A stretch of DNA of 7,307 bases from SAR324 cluster bacterium. Its GTDB lineage: Bacteria > SAR324 > JACQKK01. The notes under the pieces are model-generated. The model was not told the origin of the DNA and searched no databases. It saw nothing but the letters and a program-made list of their open reading frames with translations. The stretch lies in NCBI GenBank assembly GCA_027296185.1, contig JAPUJL010000344.1, positions 1 to 7,307 of the forward strand, written 5' to 3'. The position numbers and the translations under genes are program-made. Below are positions 581 through 7,086 of the stretch, one piece after another (within the stretch, counting starts at the first letter, position 1; each line of letters begins with the position of its first letter).

Positions 581-587
581 CGCTGTT

Positions 588-602
588 GCCCGGCGGCCGG
601 GC
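588..602 (+). repeat. Short GC hairpin in the TPR gene leader
   Basis: GCCCGG (588-593) and CCGGGC (597-602) are perfect complementary arms around a 3-nt CGG loop. There is no T-run after it, so it is not a terminator. It sits 34 bases before the chosen TTG start and covers the alternative TTG at 586, which makes initiation at 586 less likely. Confidence 0.35.
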
Positions 603-636
603 TGCACAATATTTTCACTCCTTCTCGAGAACCGCG

Positions 637-2109
637 TTGGCGCTCTGGGACAAACTCATCTCAGGCAAGGATTCCGGCGACAAGCGCGCCAAGGAGCTTT
701 GGGACCGCTCGATCAAGTACTACGAGGGGAAGCTCTACAATCGTGCGCTGAAGGATCTGCAGGAGGCCATCGAGCTCAATCCCGACTACCTGAAGGAGGC
801 GGTCGAGTTGATGCAGGTCTTCTCGGCGCAGGGAAACGACGAGCAGGCGGTGAGCGTCGGGTATGCGCTGCTGAAAACGGACTCCACCAACGTGGAGCTC
901 ATGAACAAGCTCGGCAACTCGCTGCGCAACCTGAATTCCTTCGACAAGGCCAAGCGGCTGTACACCCACGCCCTCAAGGTCAACCCCAAGTTCGTCGATG
1001 CCCGGTACAACCTCGCCGCGAGCTCCTTCCGCATCACCGCAGCGGATAGCCAACTGATCCGGCAAACCAAGACGGCGGAGGCCTTCAAGCTTCCCCGCCG
1101 CTACGAGTTTCAGGCAGACCGCGTCGGATTCCACCCCGTGCCCAACGAATCCCTGGAACAAGACGAGTCCAAACCGGCGGAAGAGGAAGGCGAGGAGGAG
1201 CAGCAGGAACTCTCCGAAGAAGATCTCGCCATGATGCGGGACGGCATGATCAAGGAACTGAAGTCCGATCTGGAGGCCAACCCGGATTCCTGGGCCCACG
1301 AGTTCAACATGGCCCTGCTCTACGACCTGTTCGATTTTGGGGAATTGGCCATCCAGCGCTACAAGAAAGCGGTGGCGCTGGAGCCGGAAAACCGGATGTC
1401 CGCCAATAACCTGGGCGTCGCCCTGATGGTGCACAAGAAGGCCCTGGAAGAGGCCGGATCCGTGCTGTTGGGGAACCTCAGCGAGCACCGCCACGACCGC
1501 ACCACCGTGCTCAACCTGGGCATGGTCTACCGCGAGACCGGCAAGGCGTTCCAAACGCTGAAGTACTTCGTCTACCTGGGCGACCTGCTGGAAAAATCCA
1601 TGGGCGAATTCGAAACCGACAAGGTGGAGCAACACGCCAACGAGCTCTACGGGCGGCGCAAGTACCTGGAGGCCATCCCGATCTTCGAGAACCTGGCCAC
1701 CGAAACGGGCGATTCGTACTGGCTGGAAAAGCTCGCCACCATGTACTTCAATCAGAAGAAGGAAGAGCAATACATCGGAACGCTCCAGCGACTGCTCAAG
1801 GCGGATCCCGATCACGCGGACGCCGCGAACAAACTCACCGGGTTGGCCGACTCCTACGAAGAACAGGCGCGGGAGAAGGCACAGAAGGGCAGCCGCTATC
1901 AGGCCATCCAACTGTTCGAAAAAGCGGTCAAGATCGAGGAGACGGCCGAGCGCTGGGTCGAGCTGGCTCAACTCTACGAGGAAGAGGGCGAGGAAATTCT
2001 CATGGACAATGCCCTCAAGCGATGGAAGCAGCTCACCAGCGGCGAAGCGGAGGAAGAAGAGGAGGCCGCAGACGCCGAAAAGGCGCAAGAAGGCGAGTTG
2101 CCCGCCTGA
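637..2109 (+). CDS. Tetratricopeptide-repeat (TPR) protein, function unknown
   Basis: A 490-residue soluble protein with no signal peptide or membrane segment, so probably cytoplasmic. I chose TTG 637 because it gives the natural N-terminus ALWDKLISGKDSGDK and has GAGAA (627-631) 5 bases upstream. The earlier TTG 586 would add 17 unconvincing residues and lies in a hairpin. Helical repeats with TPR character (alternating A/L/Y/G positions, P at repeat ends) occur at about residues 18-50, 54-84 and 87-119. After a linker, they resume at about 218-320 and 331-475. The linker (about 135-205) carries a Glu-rich run near 182-197, and the C-terminus (about 470-490) is also strongly acidic. TPRs normally form a superhelix that binds partner proteins; no catalytic motif is seen. 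The pentapeptide-repeat gene follows 97 bases later on the same strand, so the two are probably co-transcribed. The partner and role are unknown. Confidence 0.85.
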   Translation: MALWDKLISGKDSGDKRAKELWDRSIKYYEGKLYNRALKDLQEAIELNPDYLKEAVELMQVFSAQGNDEQAVSVGYALLKTDSTNVELMNKLGNSLRNLNSFDKAKRLYTHALKVNPKFVDARYNLAASSFRITAADSQLIRQTKTAEAFKLPRRYEFQADRVGFHPVPNESLEQDESKPAEEEGEEEQQELSEEDLAMMRDGMIKELKSDLEANPDSWAHEFNMALLYDLFDFGELAIQRYKKAVALEPENRMSANNLGVALMVHKKALEEAGSVLLGNLSEHRHDRTTVLNLGMVYRETGKAFQTLKYFVYLGDLLEKSMGEFETDKVEQHANELYGRRKYLEAIPIFENLATETGDSYWLEKLATMYFNQKKEEQYIGTLQRLLKADPDHADAANKLTGLADSYEEQAREKAQKGSRYQAIQLFEKAVKIEETAERWVELAQLYEEEGEEILMDNALKRWKQLTSGEAEEEEEAADAEKAQEGELPA

Positions 2110-2206
2110 ACCCGCTCCTCTCGGCAACCCGTCTCGTGACTGCCCCGTCCGGCCCCGGTTCCCCATCCCCTCTCGAATTTTCCCCAGTCTACCGGAAATT
2201 CCGCCC

Positions 2207-3403
2207 GTGAGTTCCCGGCCGCCCAGCGATCGCAGGCTCCGGCGGCACCCCAACCGCGGTTGGCTGCTCCTGCTGCTCATCTGTTGGCTGGGCGCGGCGC
2301 CCTCCGCCGGCGCGGTGCCCTGCCCGGCACCCGAGCCTGGCGCCGACTTGAGGCGCTGCACGTTCGCAGGGGCGGACCTGACGGCCACCAGCCTGGCCGG
2401 TGCGGACATCCGCGACGTGGATTTCCGCGGGGCCATCCTGACCGGCGTCAATTTCACCCGTGCGTTCGCCCGGGGGGCCAACTTCAGTGCCGCGATTCTG
2501 GACGGGGCGGTGCTGAGCGGAGATTTTCAGGGGGCCCAGTTTCGCGGCGCCCAGATGACCGGCGTTCAGGGGGCGCGGGGCATCTTCTTCGGCGCCGACT
2601 TCTCGGGAGCCCGGATGGATCGGGCGAACTTCACCCAGGCCAACCTCCATTCCGCCCGCCTCGTCGGCACCGTGGCGCCGGGTGCGGTCCTGACCCGGGC
2701 TAATCTTCGCCGCATCGAGGCGGTGGGCGCCGATCTGAGCGGTGCCGATTTCTCCCGTGCGGTGCTCATCCACGCGGTGCTCTCCGACGCGAACCTGGCA
2801 CAGGCCAACTTCTCCGAAGCCGATCTCACGGCGACCCGCTTCGACCGTGCCCGGATGAACGGCGCGCGTCTGCGCGGCGCGTACCTGTTCAACACCTCCT
2901 TTGTGGGGGCGCAGGCCACCCGCGTGGATTTACGCGATGCAATCCTGATCCGGCCGCGGGTGTGGGACGCCAACTTCGGCGGGGTCACCGGCGCCCCGGA
3001 CTGGCTGGCGCGGGGCTCGGTGGGCGGCAAGTTCACGCCCCTCAAGATGCAGACCGCGATCCGCCAGGGCCTGCGCGATCTGATGGGGGCCTACCTCCAT
3101 GGGCTGGACCTCTCCGGCCTGGACCTCAGCAAGGCGGATTTGCGCTACGCCGACCTGACCGACGCGGTATTGCTGGAGAGCGATCTGCGGGACAGCGACT
3201 GGCTGTTGGCCGATGCCAGCGGAGCGGACTTGCGCGGCGCAAAGCTGGAGGGCGTCAACTTTGCCGGAGTCCGGCTCGATGGCGCCAAGCTTTCCGCCAC
3301 CCTCAGAGCGGAGGCGGTGGTCTGGGGATTTGTGGGAGAGCCGGAATGGGTGGAACCCGGCGGCACCGAAGGCGGCGCGCGATCCAGCCCGCCGGAGCCC
3401 TAA
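2207..3403 (+). CDS. Exported pentapeptide-repeat protein
   Basis: A 398-residue protein. GTG 2207 was chosen because it places a complete signal peptide at the N-terminus: a basic region (RRLRRHPNR), a hydrophobic core (GWLLLLLICWLG, residues 18-29) and a signal-peptidase I-like A-G-A site ending at residue 36. GGAA at 2194-2197 is a plausible ribosome binding site. The mature protein starts with two cysteines (39 and 51) that could form a disulfide. Repeats of the A(D/N)Lxx type then run from about 52 to 258 and again from about 293 to 365, predicting two right-handed square beta-helix blocks. Each block ends in a GxPxW motif: GAPDWL (262-267) and GEPEWV (377-382). Residues 268-292 look non-repetitive. 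Pentapeptide proteins vary in role, from DNA mimics to structural proteins; export argues against a gyrase-binding role. It probably acts in the periplasm or outside. The function is not known. Confidence 0.85.
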   Translation: MSSRPPSDRRLRRHPNRGWLLLLLICWLGAAPSAGAVPCPAPEPGADLRRCTFAGADLTATSLAGADIRDVDFRGAILTGVNFTRAFARGANFSAAILDGAVLSGDFQGAQFRGAQMTGVQGARGIFFGADFSGARMDRANFTQANLHSARLVGTVAPGAVLTRANLRRIEAVGADLSGADFSRAVLIHAVLSDANLAQANFSEADLTATRFDRARMNGARLRGAYLFNTSFVGAQATRVDLRDAILIRPRVWDANFGGVTGAPDWLARGSVGGKFTPLKMQTAIRQGLRDLMGAYLHGLDLSGLDLSKADLRYADLTDAVLLESDLRDSDWLLADASGADLRGAKLEGVNFAGVRLDGAKLSATLRAEAVVWGFVGEPEWVEPGGTEGGARSSPPEP

Positions 3404-3436
3404 TTCGCCGCGTACGGGTCCGCGCCAGGCTGCGCG
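3404..3436. terminator. Possible weak bidirectional terminator between convergent genes
   Basis: The 33-base gap between two converging genes holds CGCGC (3421-3425) and GCGCG (3432-3436) around a 6-nt loop. The stem is only 5 bp and is followed by just TTATT on the + strand. The position suits a shared terminator, but the structure is marginal. Confidence 0.2.
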
Positions 3437-3850
3437 TTATTCCATGTGCTGCAACGCGTTATCGCCCATTTGAATGAACTGCTCGATCTTGTCGTAGGAA
3501 AATCCCAGCATCTTGCCGATGCGCAGAAATTGCTCCCGCTCCTTGGGGGAAAAATCCCGGTCGGAGATGGCGGTTTCCATCAGATCGATCAGCATCAGCG
3601 CCCGGCCCTTGAGGTTCTTCTGCCAGCCAGTGAACGCCTGCAAATCCGGCATGGTCTTGTAGTGGAGGAACTTCTTCAGCCGGTCGGTGGCGCCGGGGGA
3701 ATCGACGAAGGCAAACGAGCTCACGAGCGATTCGACCTCGCCCTGGGAGACGTTCCCGTCCGCCAGCACCATGGACACCATGGCTGTGGCGAACCACTCC
3801 TTTTGCTTGTCGTCCATCGCCTGGATCGGCGTCTTGAATTTGACCGCCAT
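3437..3850 (-). CDS. TerB-like (tellurite-resistance B fold) small protein
   Basis: A 137-residue all-helical protein whose start is well fixed: ATG at 3850 with a purine-rich GAGGAGGGG ribosome binding site just upstream. The sequence fits the TerB fold, in which two similar helical halves each carry an acidic loop. The first has LADGNVSQGE (residues 29-38: D31, N33, E38) and the second has AISDRDFSPKE (94-104: D97, D99, E104) followed by FLRIGKMLGFS. In the family these loops are thought to bind divalent metal. TerB proteins occur in tellurite, phage and stress-response loci and also as stand-alone proteins, so the name does not prove metal resistance; no other ter genes are present. It lies 91 bases downstream of the CnoX gene on the same strand, possibly in one transcript, which hints at a stress or proteostasis role. 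It is about the usual length for a single TerB domain. Confidence 0.75.
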   Translation of the reverse strand: MAVKFKTPIQAMDDKQKEWFATAMVSMVLADGNVSQGEVESLVSSFAFVDSPGATDRLKKFLHYKTMPDLQAFTGWQKNLKGRALMLIDLMETAISDRDFSPKEREQFLRIGKMLGFSYDKIEQFIQMGDNALQHME

Positions 3851-3882
3851 CCCGTTCTCGTCCCCTCCTCAAGGATGATCCG

Positions 3883-3902
3883 GGCCGTCCCGCACGACGG
3901 CC
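3883..3902. repeat. Hairpin between the CnoX and TerB-like genes
   Basis: Arms GGCCGTC (3883-3889) and GACGGCC (3896-3902) form a perfect 7-bp stem with a 6-nt loop. On the - strand, no T-run follows, so it is unlikely to be a full intrinsic terminator. It may be a transcript-stabilising or partial-termination element between the two genes, and it lies just upstream of the TerB-like gene's ribosome binding site. Confidence 0.3.
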
Positions 3903-3941
3903 GGGCGAGGTTCCACGTGCGGCCGCAGGGATCCAAGCGAA

Positions 3942-4823
3942 TTAAACGAACAGAATCGACGACAGCTTGTTCCGGTACTCCGGTTCCAGGCGCGATTTGG
4001 GCGGAAGCACGTCGAACACGGCCACCATGCCCTTGCGGCCCCCGTCGTCCCTGAATTTCCGGTCGGTCTTCACGATCTCCAGGAAGGCCTCCAGCGCCGG
4101 ACCGTGCCGGCCGGCGACGGCATCCCGGCAGGCCAAGCCGAATTTGGCCTCGAGGTTCATGGGATCGCTCTGCAATTGCGCCCGTAGCGCCATCTCGTCG
4201 CCCGCGTGCTCGTGGAGGAACACCTTGGCCCGAAGCTGGGCCAGCTCCCGGCGGATATCGTCCTCCTCGTCGATCTGCCCGAGCTGCTCCTTGGCCTCGT
4301 CCAGCTTGCCCTGGTCGATCAGTATCAGCCCCAACCCCACGAGCGCCTTGGCGTTCTTCCCGTCCGATTCCAGCGTCTGCCGGAAGACCCGCTCCGCCGC
4401 CGCCGGATCGCCGGACTTGAGCAGACCGGCCCCCTGTTCGGCCTCCAGGTCCTGCTCGGTGGGCAGGTTGAGATCGAGAAACTTCTTGATGGCCGGCTCC
4501 GGAAGGGCCCCGACGAACTCGTCCTTGATCTGCCCCTGCACGATCAGCTTCACAACGGGGATGCTCCGAATCTGGAGCGCATCGGCGAGGTGCTGATTCT
4601 CGTCCACATTGACCTTGGCGAGCACGAATCGGCCTTTGGAATCGGCGGCCATCCGCTCCAGGGTCGGGCCCAACTCCTTGCAGGGGGCACACCAGGGCGC
4701 CCAGAAATCCACCATCACGGGCACCTCGAAGGACTTCTGGATGACCGTCTGCTCGAAGTCGCGCTCGGTGGCTTCGAAGGCCGCCGGCGAAGGGTCGATT
4801 GACATCGCTTGGGAATCTTTCAT
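3942..4823 (-). CDS. cnoX: CnoX/YbbN-type co-chaperone: thioredoxin domain with TPRs
   Basis: A 293-residue cytoplasmic protein, close to E. coli CnoX/YbbN in length and layout. The N-terminal thioredoxin domain (about 13-120) shows VDFWAPWCAPCK with the active pair C45 and C48, buried D39, and the cis-proline motif SIP with P89. TPR-like helices follow (about 125-260), and the C-terminal GMVAVFDVLPP...YRNKLSSILF is typical of the family. Known family members bind unfolding proteins under oxidative or chlorine stress and pass them to GroEL/ES or DnaK. E. coli CnoX lacks a reducing CxxC pair, whereas this one has CAPC and so may also act as a thiol oxidoreductase, as described for some other bacteria. 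ATG 4823 is used; a TAG two codons upstream limits extension. ATG 4805 (M7) is an alternative, and neither has a clear ribosome binding site. The TerB-like gene follows on the same strand. Confidence 0.9.
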   Translation of the reverse strand: MKDSQAMSIDPSPAAFEATERDFEQTVIQKSFEVPVMVDFWAPWCAPCKELGPTLERMAADSKGRFVLAKVNVDENQHLADALQIRSIPVVKLIVQGQIKDEFVGALPEPAIKKFLDLNLPTEQDLEAEQGAGLLKSGDPAAAERVFRQTLESDGKNAKALVGLGLILIDQGKLDEAKEQLGQIDEEDDIRRELAQLRAKVFLHEHAGDEMALRAQLQSDPMNLEAKFGLACRDAVAGRHGPALEAFLEIVKTDRKFRDDGGRKGMVAVFDVLPPKSRLEPEYRNKLSSILFV

Positions 4824-4943
4824 ACGCTATGGAAGGTAATCATGGTGGCGCGCTGGGGAATCGGAGAGCGCGGGGGCCATTTCTGCCGCCCGGCATCTTT
4901 CCGTCTAGGGCCGTCCGTTTCCCAACTATCTAAGCGTGAACAG

Positions 4944-4949
4944 TATCAT
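4944..4949 (+). promoter_or_regulatory. Candidate -10 element for the divergent exonuclease-Nudix gene
   Basis: TATCAT matches the -10 consensus at 5 of 6 positions and overlaps the candidate -10 of the divergent CnoX promoter. No good -35 hexamer lies 16-18 bases upstream, so it would need an activator or be weak. A transcript from here would carry a leader of about 190 bases that includes the overlapping hairpins at 5006-5079. Confidence 0.22.
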
Positions 4950-4976
4950 TCGACCGCGACCCCCGTCCACTGTCAA
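4948..4976 (-). promoter_or_regulatory. Candidate sigma-70 promoter for the CnoX gene
   Basis: Read on the - strand, a perfect TTGACA (+ strand 4971-4976) is followed after 17 bases by TCGAAT (+ strand 4948-4953), which matches the -10 consensus at 4 of 6 positions but lacks the important second-position A. This would give a leader of about 118 bases. The perfect -35 and ideal spacing are the main support. Confidence 0.35.
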
Positions 4977-5005
4977 GCTGGAGCGTCCTTTCCCCGGGCA
5001 CGCGC

Positions 5006-5035
5006 CGCACCGCTCCAGGAGCGGTGCGCTCCTGG
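5006..5035 (+). repeat. Two overlapping, mutually exclusive hairpins
   Basis: Hairpin A has 11-nt perfect arms: CGCACCGCTCC (5006-5016) and GGAGCGGTGCG (5018-5028), with one base between. As RNA, the innermost pairs would open to form a loop; as DNA it is a near-continuous palindrome. Hairpin B has 9-nt perfect arms: CCAGGAGCG (5015-5023) and CGCTCCTGG (5027-5035), with a GTG loop. Both use 5018-5023, so only one can form at a time. The pair lies 112-142 bases before the ATG of the exonuclease-Nudix gene, in its presumed leader. It could be an attenuator-like switch, a binding site for a dimeric regulator, or a dispersed genomic repeat. Confidence 0.6.
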
Positions 5036-5037
5036 CC

Positions 5038-5079
5038 GCCGCCGGCTACGCGGTGACGCGGAGCCGGATTTCCGGCGGC
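5038..5079 (+). repeat. Further inverted repeats in the same leader
   Basis: GCCGCCGG (5038-5045) is complementary to CCGGCGGC (5072-5079), and inside the right arm GCCGGA (5063-5068) pairs with TCCGGC (5071-5076). The two again compete for the same bases. Together with 5006-5035, this makes some 70 bases of dense potential structure just before the exonuclease-Nudix gene. GC-rich DNA gives such pairs by chance more often, so this part is weaker than the preceding one. Confidence 0.35.
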
Positions 5080-5147
5080 AGTGACCCAGTGCATCCATCG
5101 GCCCGCCGGCGCTCCGCGCTTGCGAGCCGTTGAAGGCGGCCACCCAA

Positions 5148-6491
5148 ATGGACGTTCGCGAAGTCATCGTCAACGAAACTCTCCCGCAGATTCCCGCCGG
5201 GATGGTGGCCTTCGACCTGGAGATGGCCAATTCCTTCGCCAACGCCCCGCCGGTGATCTGTATGATCGGCATGGAGCGCTACGACTCCGAGGCGGGCCAC
5301 TGCGTCTCCACCATCGCCTCCATCACCAGCCGGCGGGAGGAGCCGGAGCTGATCGAGTGGTTCGTCCGCGAGCTCTCGGGCCTCGCCGATCGGCACACCC
5401 ACCCGCGCCTGCTGAGCTTTTCCGGGCTGGAGAACGACGTGCCGTGGCTGGAGCAACGGCTGCAGCGATTCGACTTGCCGCCTGAGCAAAGCGGGACACT
5501 CGAGCGCTTCGAGCACGTGGATCTGAAGGCCGAATTCTACCGCCGCACCCACAGCGATCACATGTCGCTGAAAAACCTGGAGCGCATCTTCGGCATCGGC
5601 CGGGAAAGCTCCATCCAATCGCGCAAGGTGAGCTTCATCCTCACCGACGTCATGAGCAGCCGACGCCGCGGCTCGTCCATCCCGGAGAAGATCTTCCGCT
5701 ACTTGCACGAGGACGTGCATCACCTGCTGCTGATTTACAACCGCTGGGAGCAGGTCTCCCTCGATGAGTTCCGGCTCACCGACGAGGAGTACCTGAATTT
5801 CCTCAACAGCCTGAAGAATGCGCTGCACAAACTCGTCCAGTCGCCGCTGGCCCGCCGCAGCGACACCCAGCGTGCCGTGAAGAACCTCGGCGGCTACCTC
5901 AAGGCGTTGAGCGGTGCCCTGGACAAGGCATTGGTGGATCAAACCTTCGCCGAGTTCGAGCTGCCGCCTCTGCCTGAGTTCGACGGGCGGCACCGGGATT
6001 TGGGCCGCATCAAAAAGAAGCACGCCCGCCTGAGCGGCATCTCCCTGCGCGATGCGGAAACCGGGGCCTACCAGCTCCGCAGCCGGCTGCGCAAGCCCAA
6101 GGGCGCCCTGGCCGTGGTACGGCACCAGGGGCGGCTGCTGATGATCCGCCGCGCCGATGGCCTGAAGCGGGCCGCCGGCTACTGGGGCCTGCCCGGCGGC
6201 TCCCTGGAGGAGGGCGAAAGCCCATCCATCGGGGCCGTGCGGGAGTTGTGGGAAGAGCTCAACCTGTACGGCACCGCGGGCCGCATCCTGGGCACCAGCA
6301 CCAGTGTGGGCGGGGAATACACCCTGTACTGGGTGGAGGTGGAGGTGGACGACCTCTCGACCCTCAACGCTGAGCAATCCGAGGTGGCCGAGGTTCGTTG
6401 GATGGCCCAGGGCGAAATCGCCTCCCTGGATCCTCTGATCCCCGGCGCGCTGGAGGGCTTCCACCGCTTTCTGGGCCCCGAGTGGCAGTGA
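5148..6491 (+). CDS. Fusion of a YprB-like DEDDy exonuclease domain and a Nudix hydrolase domain
   Basis: A 447-residue protein. ATG 5148 is preferred over the in-frame TTG 5130 because AAGG (5133-5136) lies 11 bases before it. The N-terminal domain (about 15-200) matches the RNase H-like/YprB 3'-5' exonuclease fold: FDLEM gives D23 and E25, FSGLENDVPWL gives D97, HVDLKAEFYRR and SLKNLERIFGIGR are the family's middle blocks, and YLHEDV gives Y185 and D189 with DEDDy spacing. Residues about 200-315 match nothing I know. The C-terminal domain (about 316-447) is Nudix: GGSLEEGE (350-357) and RELWEEL (365-371) supply R365, E366, E369 and E370, although the usual Gly after the last Glu pair is N372. 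Such domains hydrolyse nucleoside diphosphate-linked compounds. The whole could degrade RNA or DNA ends and process nucleotides or caps; the substrate is unknown. The cupin gene follows 85 bases later. Confidence 0.85.
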   Translation: MDVREVIVNETLPQIPAGMVAFDLEMANSFANAPPVICMIGMERYDSEAGHCVSTIASITSRREEPELIEWFVRELSGLADRHTHPRLLSFSGLENDVPWLEQRLQRFDLPPEQSGTLERFEHVDLKAEFYRRTHSDHMSLKNLERIFGIGRESSIQSRKVSFILTDVMSSRRRGSSIPEKIFRYLHEDVHHLLLIYNRWEQVSLDEFRLTDEEYLNFLNSLKNALHKLVQSPLARRSDTQRAVKNLGGYLKALSGALDKALVDQTFAEFELPPLPEFDGRHRDLGRIKKKHARLSGISLRDAETGAYQLRSRLRKPKGALAVVRHQGRLLMIRRADGLKRAAGYWGLPGGSLEEGESPSIGAVRELWEELNLYGTAGRILGTSTSVGGEYTLYWVEVEVDDLSTLNAEQSEVAEVRWMAQGEIASLDPLIPGALEGFHRFLGPEWQ

Positions 6492-6576
6492 CGATAATCG
6501 CAGGCCGAAACCTGGGGAGCGGCGCCTGCGCTGTCCGGCCGCTCTTGGCCCGCCACCACGCAGCGATCGAGACGCC

Positions 6577-6951
6577 ATGAACGCACCCCTGATCGAGCAC
6601 GCAGGCCAACTGGCGCGCTACGCCCCGCCCGATCACCACGGCACGGTCAACGTGCGGCTGGTAGAGAAGGACTTCTGCGGTACCTTCGAGATGATCCGCG
6701 GCGTCGTGCAGCCCGGCGGCGAAGCCGAACCTCACGCCCACGAGACGGAGCATCAGGTGATGTACGTCATCGCGGGAGAGGCCGAAGTGACCCTCGGCGA
6801 GGCCGCGCCGGAAATCTGCGGTCCCGGCACCATCGTGCGCATACCGCCCAAGCTCAGCCACCGGGTCGTATGTCACGGCGCCGAGCCCCTGGACGTGGTG
6901 ATCGTCTACAGCCCCCCGCTGCCCAAGCGCGCCGACACGCCGCTGGAGTAG
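6577..6951 (+). CDS. Small single-domain cupin protein
   Basis: A 124-residue single-domain cupin with no signal peptide. Motif 1 reads PHAHETEHQVMYVIAGEAEV, providing H53, H55 and Q60 (the usual Glu position, where Gln also occurs) before G67. Motif 2 reads GPGTIVRIPPKLSH, giving P90 and H95. The likely metal site is therefore H53, H55, Q60 and H95. Cupins of this size range from dioxygenases and isomerases to ligand-binding proteins, so no reaction can be assigned. The start is ATG 6577; the ribosome binding site is weak (GAG at 6569-6571). The gap of 85 bases from the exonuclease-Nudix gene on the same strand allows co-transcription but does not prove it. Confidence 0.82.
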   Translation: MNAPLIEHAGQLARYAPPDHHGTVNVRLVEKDFCGTFEMIRGVVQPGGEAEPHAHETEHQVMYVIAGEAEVTLGEAAPEICGPGTIVRIPPKLSHRVVCHGAEPLDVVIVYSPPLPKRADTPLE

Positions 6952-7037: not shown

Positions 7038-7086
7038 GCCTGTCCTGAGCAACGCCGAAGGGCCTGTCCTGAGCAACGCCGAAGGG
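7038..7086 (+). repeat. Tandem 24-bp repeat, two copies
   Basis: Two identical 24-bp units stand head to tail, at 7039-7062 and 7063-7086. Each begins CCTGTCCTGAGC and ends GCCGAAGGG. The base before each unit is also G, making the periodic tract 7038-7086. The unit resembles a type of interspersed intergenic repeat (CCTTCG...GCTCAGGACAGG on the other strand) that I recall from many bacterial genomes. It lies in the gap between the cupin and the next gene. Confidence 0.85.

Follow-up and report, generated by a model that had tools for sequence, protein, structure and literature searches.

A conserved, lineage-specific fusion of predicted DEDDy exonuclease and Nudix hydrolase domains in one family of SAR324 bacteria

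Exonucleases with an RNase_H_2 domain (PF13482) are placed, in the accessible text of PMC3985635, among the presumed 3'-5' exonucleases of clade F (family F.10, YprB-type/COG3359). According to the same text, COG3359 domains frequently, not universally, precede tetratricopeptide repeats (TPRs), and COG2251 members carry DUF83 and often AAA domains, whereas the protein discussed here carries a Nudix domain. Its gene lies at 5148..6491 (+), stop codon included, in a stretch of 7,307 nucleotides from a SAR324 cluster bacterium (contig JAPUJL010000344.1), called the window in its whole length, and encodes 447 amino acids. The fusion has the Pfam domain, the DEDDy residues and the predicted PolB-exonuclease-like fold of the YprB-type proteins. 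Instead of TPRs, for which the protein (P0001) gave no Pfam match at E values up to 1, it continues with a helical spacer and then a Nudix domain that looks catalytic.

The Bacillus cereus Nudix protein 3Q4I, which we take to be CDP-Chase, reportedly owes its exonuclease activity to the Nudix protein itself, with no DEDDy domain involved, unlike the fusion. This protein is linked to 3'-5' exonuclease activity in the accessible part of PMC5389931. An RNase H-like domain joined to NUDIX has been reported as an occasional architecture, and the sole mention of NUDIX in the available text of that report stands beside DUF429 (PMC3985635). DUF429 belongs to another clade (D, with resolvase-type nucleases) than the exonuclease of the fusion, and DUF429-NUDIX proteins presumably reflect a separate fusion event. 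DEDD dinucleases also occur near NUDIX genes, but there the two are encoded separately on one mobile element, and the word 'fused' is not used in the portion of the paper available (PMC11706625). Full-text literature searches, which most subscription papers lay outside, returned no description of the exonuclease-Nudix architecture, in agreement with a preliminary description of this DNA that named no characterized system of this order. Judged by its sequence, the fusion is a novel pairing of two known domain families, conserved within one lineage, with a putative function.

The translation, the Pfam matches and the full-length occurrence of the gene in related genomes all support a single polypeptide, as first proposed, and a domain search scored both halves rather than one. 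The exonuclease domain (residues 17-205, 5196..5762, +) resembles RNase_H_2 and the DEDDy fold of PolB proofreading domains, and reaches 47.5 bits with PF13482 against a cut-off of 22. Its first DEDD motif comprises the codons of D23-L24-E25 (5214..5222, +), its second those of N96-D97 (5433..5438, +), and the YxxxD of the DEDDy type runs from Y185 to D189 (5700..5714, +). The helical spacer (residues 206-312, 5763..6083, +) leads to the Nudix domain (residues 313-446, 6084..6485, +), which also exceeds its Pfam cut-off (PF00293, 66.5 bits) and finds matches to the Nudix fold in structural comparison. The Nudix box (residues 351-373, 6198..6266, +) reads G-x5-E-x7-REL-x-EE-x-N-L against the consensus GX5EX7REUXEEXGU, with Asn in place of the usual late Gly.

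Conservation was assessed in the query and its 86 best matches (P0001-P0087), of which 84 have at least 430 amino acids; the shorter P0021, P0082 and P0083 were dropped. The complete DEDDy site and Nudix core claimed at the outset are borne out, since all eleven active-site residues checked are kept in 83 of the 84 full-length sequences. D97, Y185, D189, G351, E357, R365, E366, E369 and E370 are invariant in all 84, and D23 and E25 are present in all except P0056, which has a gap there. N96, D125, W346, W395 and W418 are likewise invariant. The late Gly position of the Nudix box (residue 372, 6261-6263) is N in 63 sequences, G in 18 and another residue in 3. The fusion is a genuine, conserved polypeptide of exonuclease and Nudix parts in which both predicted catalytic sets are retained; the folds and activities of the two halves are predictions.

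The two halves have also diverged together. Mean pairwise identity in 83 sequences (the near-duplicate P0002 being excluded) is 53% for the exonuclease, 34% for the spacer and 60% for the Nudix half, the most conserved part. Pairwise identities in one half rise with those in the other (r 0.77), a value reached in none of 999 permutations; the correlation is weak on the ten genome loci alone (r 0.20). The spacer, poorly conserved in sequence, is nearly fixed in length, as residues 200-317 span 113-118 amino acids across the 84 sequences. Comparison of the window with each of nine relatives showed, in both halves, the most differences at third codon positions and the fewest at second ones, consistent with selection acting on each half at the protein level. 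The exception is the Nudix half of L036, where first and second positions are equal, and the pattern is less clear in the spacer. A sequencing error or chance adjacency is ruled out by the 84 full-length sequences of the same architecture, the conserved residues and the co-diverging halves, and the alternative that most homologues are separate genes was not borne out either.

The fusion occurs at full length in all ten genomes, from ten genera, of the SAR324 family to which the window belongs, and in none of 42 genomes searched from the rest of the phylum, where Nudix pieces alone match. Two conserved peptides, used as patterns to scan the species-genome collection, found 52 stretches and ten relatives, nine of them full-length; the tenth (L040) is a Nudix-only match. 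The PF13482 profile, in a six-frame search, recovered the fused gene in seven of the ten family genomes and missed it in G005, G006 and G007. More divergent homologues (P0085-P0087, 39-44% identity) lie on contigs of 0.7-1.7 Mb. The homologue search was limited to sequences with 5-residue words in common with the query and scored the 7997 candidates with the most such words, so this search and the peptide patterns could have overlooked a fusion of the same architecture that arose independently in another phylum. Searches of phages and plasmids, and of viral contigs with exact peptide patterns, gave no match, and a mobile or viral origin is rejected within the reach of these searches. The 50 matches listed from a viral structure library were single-domain matches or long alignments with a very high root-mean-square deviation.

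Short matches to a single half are few and resemble pieces or shortened copies. The exonuclease half returned only six proteins (P0021, P0089, P0090 and P0083, all four already found by the homologue search, and the short P0093 and P0094, of 171 and 118 amino acids), and no close standalone family was among them. P0083 contains Nudix sequence as well, and the exonuclease-only P0093 is not obviously truncated by a contig end. The best 120 of 1497 matches to the Nudix half included five pieces of the fusion family (P0095-P0099), followed by P0100-P0110 at 36-44% identity. P0021 (271 amino acids) is 100% identical to the exonuclease half of the window over 48% of the query, continues with a different tail just past the domain, and is probably a chimera of metagenome assembly. 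P0089 (279 amino acids, exonuclease and spacer) and P0095 (156 amino acids, Nudix) each have a longest contig of 1981 bases, possibly the same one, in which a frameshift would have divided the gene.

Among solved structures, a profile search with the exonuclease half gave nothing meaningful: the best value, 0.028, belongs to a designed repeat protein, and Rrp6-type nucleases score 0.3-0.4. The Nudix half has BdRppH as its nearest solved relative by profile and 3grn by VIA-align. It shares the Nudix fold and box with proteins of the MutT, MutT2, Orf135 and BdRppH types and differs from them in three respects: the attached exonuclease, scores under the curated cut-off of each of the 22 NCBIfam models matched at E values up to 1, and the Asn/Asp position of MutT-like relatives, which is mostly Ala in the fusion family and never N or D. 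The scores fall short of the cut-offs for MutT (24.9 against 97.9 in TIGR00586; 27.7 against 148 in NF008044) and RppH (25.8 against 116 in NF001938), but each of these two enzymes' cut-offs was passed by only three of 14 control genomes, so that failing them says little. The NAD+ diphosphatase model of NudC (NF001299) was not among the 22 matches, and the removal of NAD caps, suggested earlier, is not favored.

Hydrolytic 3'-5' exonucleases of the DEDDy type release nucleoside monophosphates, which lack the pyrophosphate bond cut by Nudix enzymes. A hand-over of products, as in the early proposal that exonuclease digestion feeds nucleotide clean-up, is therefore unlikely. A common substrate for the two halves would require the Nudix domain to act at the 5' end or on its remnant; otherwise they would work in parallel. 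The reading tentatively preferred here, with a probability of about 0.35, is that the fusion processes short RNA or other oligonucleotides at both ends, combining 3' trimming with hydrolysis of a 5' pyrophosphate or cap remnant. The exonuclease half would take nucleotides off the 3' end and, on nearing the 5' end, might stop at a small remnant that bears the polyphosphate and resists its digestion. The covalently joined Nudix half would then cut the 5' pyrophosphate bond of this remnant, be it a 5'-polyphosphate or a dinucleoside-polyphosphate cap remnant. By analogy, the eukaryotic exosome and the scavenger DcpS share a comparable finishing role. We infer that both sites would act on one substrate, that RNA and not DNA would be this substrate, and that a 5' end would be the target of the Nudix half.

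A shared substrate is suggested by the nearly fixed spacer, by BdRppH and 3grn as nearest Nudix relatives and by the loss of the MutT-like Asn/Asp position. The protein 3grn has moderate activity on Ap3A-Ap5A and is inactive on 8-oxo-dGTP, according to the accessible part of PMC5158307. Several observations weigh against the two-ended action on RNA. In the same part of that paper, the authors doubt that the substrate appropriate to 3grn had been found, and BdRppH is termed only distantly related to Escherichia coli RppH in the available text of PMC7144940. Nucleotide hydrolases of the MutT2 and Orf135 types are matches of similar quality for the Nudix half, and the best superposition of the exonuclease half is with proofreading domains of DNA polymerases. 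No RNA-binding domain is among the Pfam matches of the fusion, no RNA-decay gene is among its neighbors with a Pfam match, and both proposed activities are themselves predictions. RNA end turnover also has other enzymes in these genomes, as standalone genes of the RppH-like and PF01612 types are widespread. Nine of the ten family genomes, all except G000, have a PF01612 gene (RNase D type or, as we label it, NrnC type) with an open frame of 224-268 amino acids. An RppH-like standalone protein, above a curated RppH cut-off in three cases, is found in eight and was not seen in G003 and G009; these genomes are 72-97% complete, so such absences are soft. The early suggestion of diphosphate-type 5' end removal with 3' trimming thus stands as the possible, leading reading, with the reservation that an RppH-like protein is already there in those eight genomes.

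The NUDIX domain was found at 40 places in the ten family genomes, namely in the ten fusions and in 30 standalone genes. Classed by best NCBIfam match, mostly under the curated cut-offs, the latter comprise eight RppH-like, nine coenzyme A-pyrophosphatase-like, six YfcD-like, three MutY, one NudE-like and one ADP-ribose diphosphatase gene. The other two, L071 and L072, have NMN-adenylyltransferase/Nudix and NtrR models as best matches. None of the 30 has MutT or NudC as its best match; the NudC model is second-best for L072, with 43.4 bits against a cut-off of 158. Seven of the ten genomes have a second, standalone PF13482 match, that of G006 overlapping a stronger PF01612 match, which counters the idea of the fusion as a replacement of an ordinary exonuclease.

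A coupling of the two reactions appears likely, given the predicted catalytic residues that both halves have retained. If it is true, reactions for which bacteria are known to use two separate enzymes would be united in a single protein, which would offer a handle on the substrates of the little-characterized PF13482 exonucleases. The family of the window is a natural test of the use of such a coupling, as the fusion is in every family genome searched and in none of the phylum relatives. A more ambitious version of the two-ended reading seems rather unlikely. It proposes an all-in-one enzyme that would degrade RNA bearing a cap or triphosphate, starting at the 3' end, and would hydrolyze the remaining 5' cap or polyphosphate in its second active site, as a bacterial counterpart of the exosome together with the scavenger decapping enzyme.

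Close behind the favored reading comes quality control of nucleotides and DNA, which is possible but not probable. The Nudix half would destroy aberrant nucleoside triphosphates or their deoxy forms before incorporation, the PolB-like exonuclease would remove them from 3' ends, and the fusion would stand in for MutT and a DnaQ-type proofreader. The proofreading-like fold of the exonuclease half fits this proposal, as does the lack of MutT in the family genomes and, in seven of ten, of RNase_T-type exonucleases (DnaQ/Orn-like, PF00929). But these lacks do not track the fusion, which was rejected on this ground as a stand-in for a lost enzyme. PF00929 was found in three of the ten family genomes and, in the other three families, in eight of 31, one of one and ten of ten genomes, so that 23 of the 31 genomes of the next family lack a match without having the fusion; TIGR00573 shows a similar distribution. 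The MutT cut-off, a weak test given the control genomes, was passed by one of 52 genomes of the phylum and failed by 51. The fusion scores lower with NF008044 than the standalone L071 does (30.6 bits), and the best TIGR00586 match in the genome of the window is an RppH-like gene on contig 329. The absence of N or D at the MutT-like position and the inactivity of 3grn on 8-oxo-dGTP argue in the same direction, and a yprB null is not a mutator according to the available text of PMC5627055.

Two housekeeping enzymes might also have been fused for co-expression only and act independently. The family-wide distribution and the ordinary neighbors of the gene (cysS, thioredoxin-TPR, TerB-like and pentapeptide-repeat) would suit this unlikely explanation, but the nearly fixed spacer and the scarcity of separate relatives, with P0093 as a possible exception, weakly suggest a constraint on the joined form. 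Even with independent halves, the fusion would be a clean case of lineage-specific domain fusion. A Nudix half that senses a ligand and controls the nuclease, its own catalysis being of little weight, is less likely still. Non-catalytic Nudix domains typically sit in multidomain proteins, according to the part of PMC5389931 available; however, the six Nudix residues from G351 to E370 listed above are invariant, and no other part of the protein is as well conserved as the Nudix half. An anti-phage defense protein is highly improbable. In its favor, the Nudix half scores 43.7 bits with PDC-S07, a PADLOC candidate model. Against it, the exonuclease half has no defense-model match, the only other match is a marginal Cas2d at residues 189-227 (0.017), the two halves do not match one model, matches are missing from the phages, plasmids and, by exact peptide patterns, viral contigs scanned, and the gene recurs in ten of ten family genomes among housekeeping neighbors.

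The neighbors of the homologues, listed across ten loci (the window and L031-L039), are recurring genes of the housekeeping type, and the neighborhood is without a direct functional clue. Upstream and divergent from the fusion in eight loci is a gene for a thioredoxin-TPR protein (3942..4823, -, in the window), identified by Pfam, NCBIfam and synteny clustering, with an intact CAPC motif; by its domain order it is presumably CnoX/YbbN-like. Co-regulation of the two genes is possible; between them lies an intergenic region (4824..5147, by open reading frame coordinates, on neither strand), and a consensus scan of 4780-5180 found no sigma-70-like or terminator-like site. TerB-like genes were found in seven loci, TPR genes in seven, pentapeptide-repeat genes in six and a convergent cysS downstream in six. 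These counts are lower bounds, as several contigs end early, and the clusters are identified by the Pfam matches of one or few members. A cupin gene after the fusion is common to the window and L031 only.

The recurring block occupies 586-4823 of the window, with TPR, pentapeptide-repeat, TerB-like and thioredoxin-TPR genes. Long open reading frames lie opposite coding genes at 5046-6578 (-) and 661-2481 (-), of 510 and 606 amino acids, and similar ones are opposite the same genes in relatives (eight and seven loci). This is what shadow frames in GC-rich DNA would be expected to show. No Rfam family was found in the window, and at positions 7038-7085 a 24-base unit is duplicated in tandem without a mismatch.
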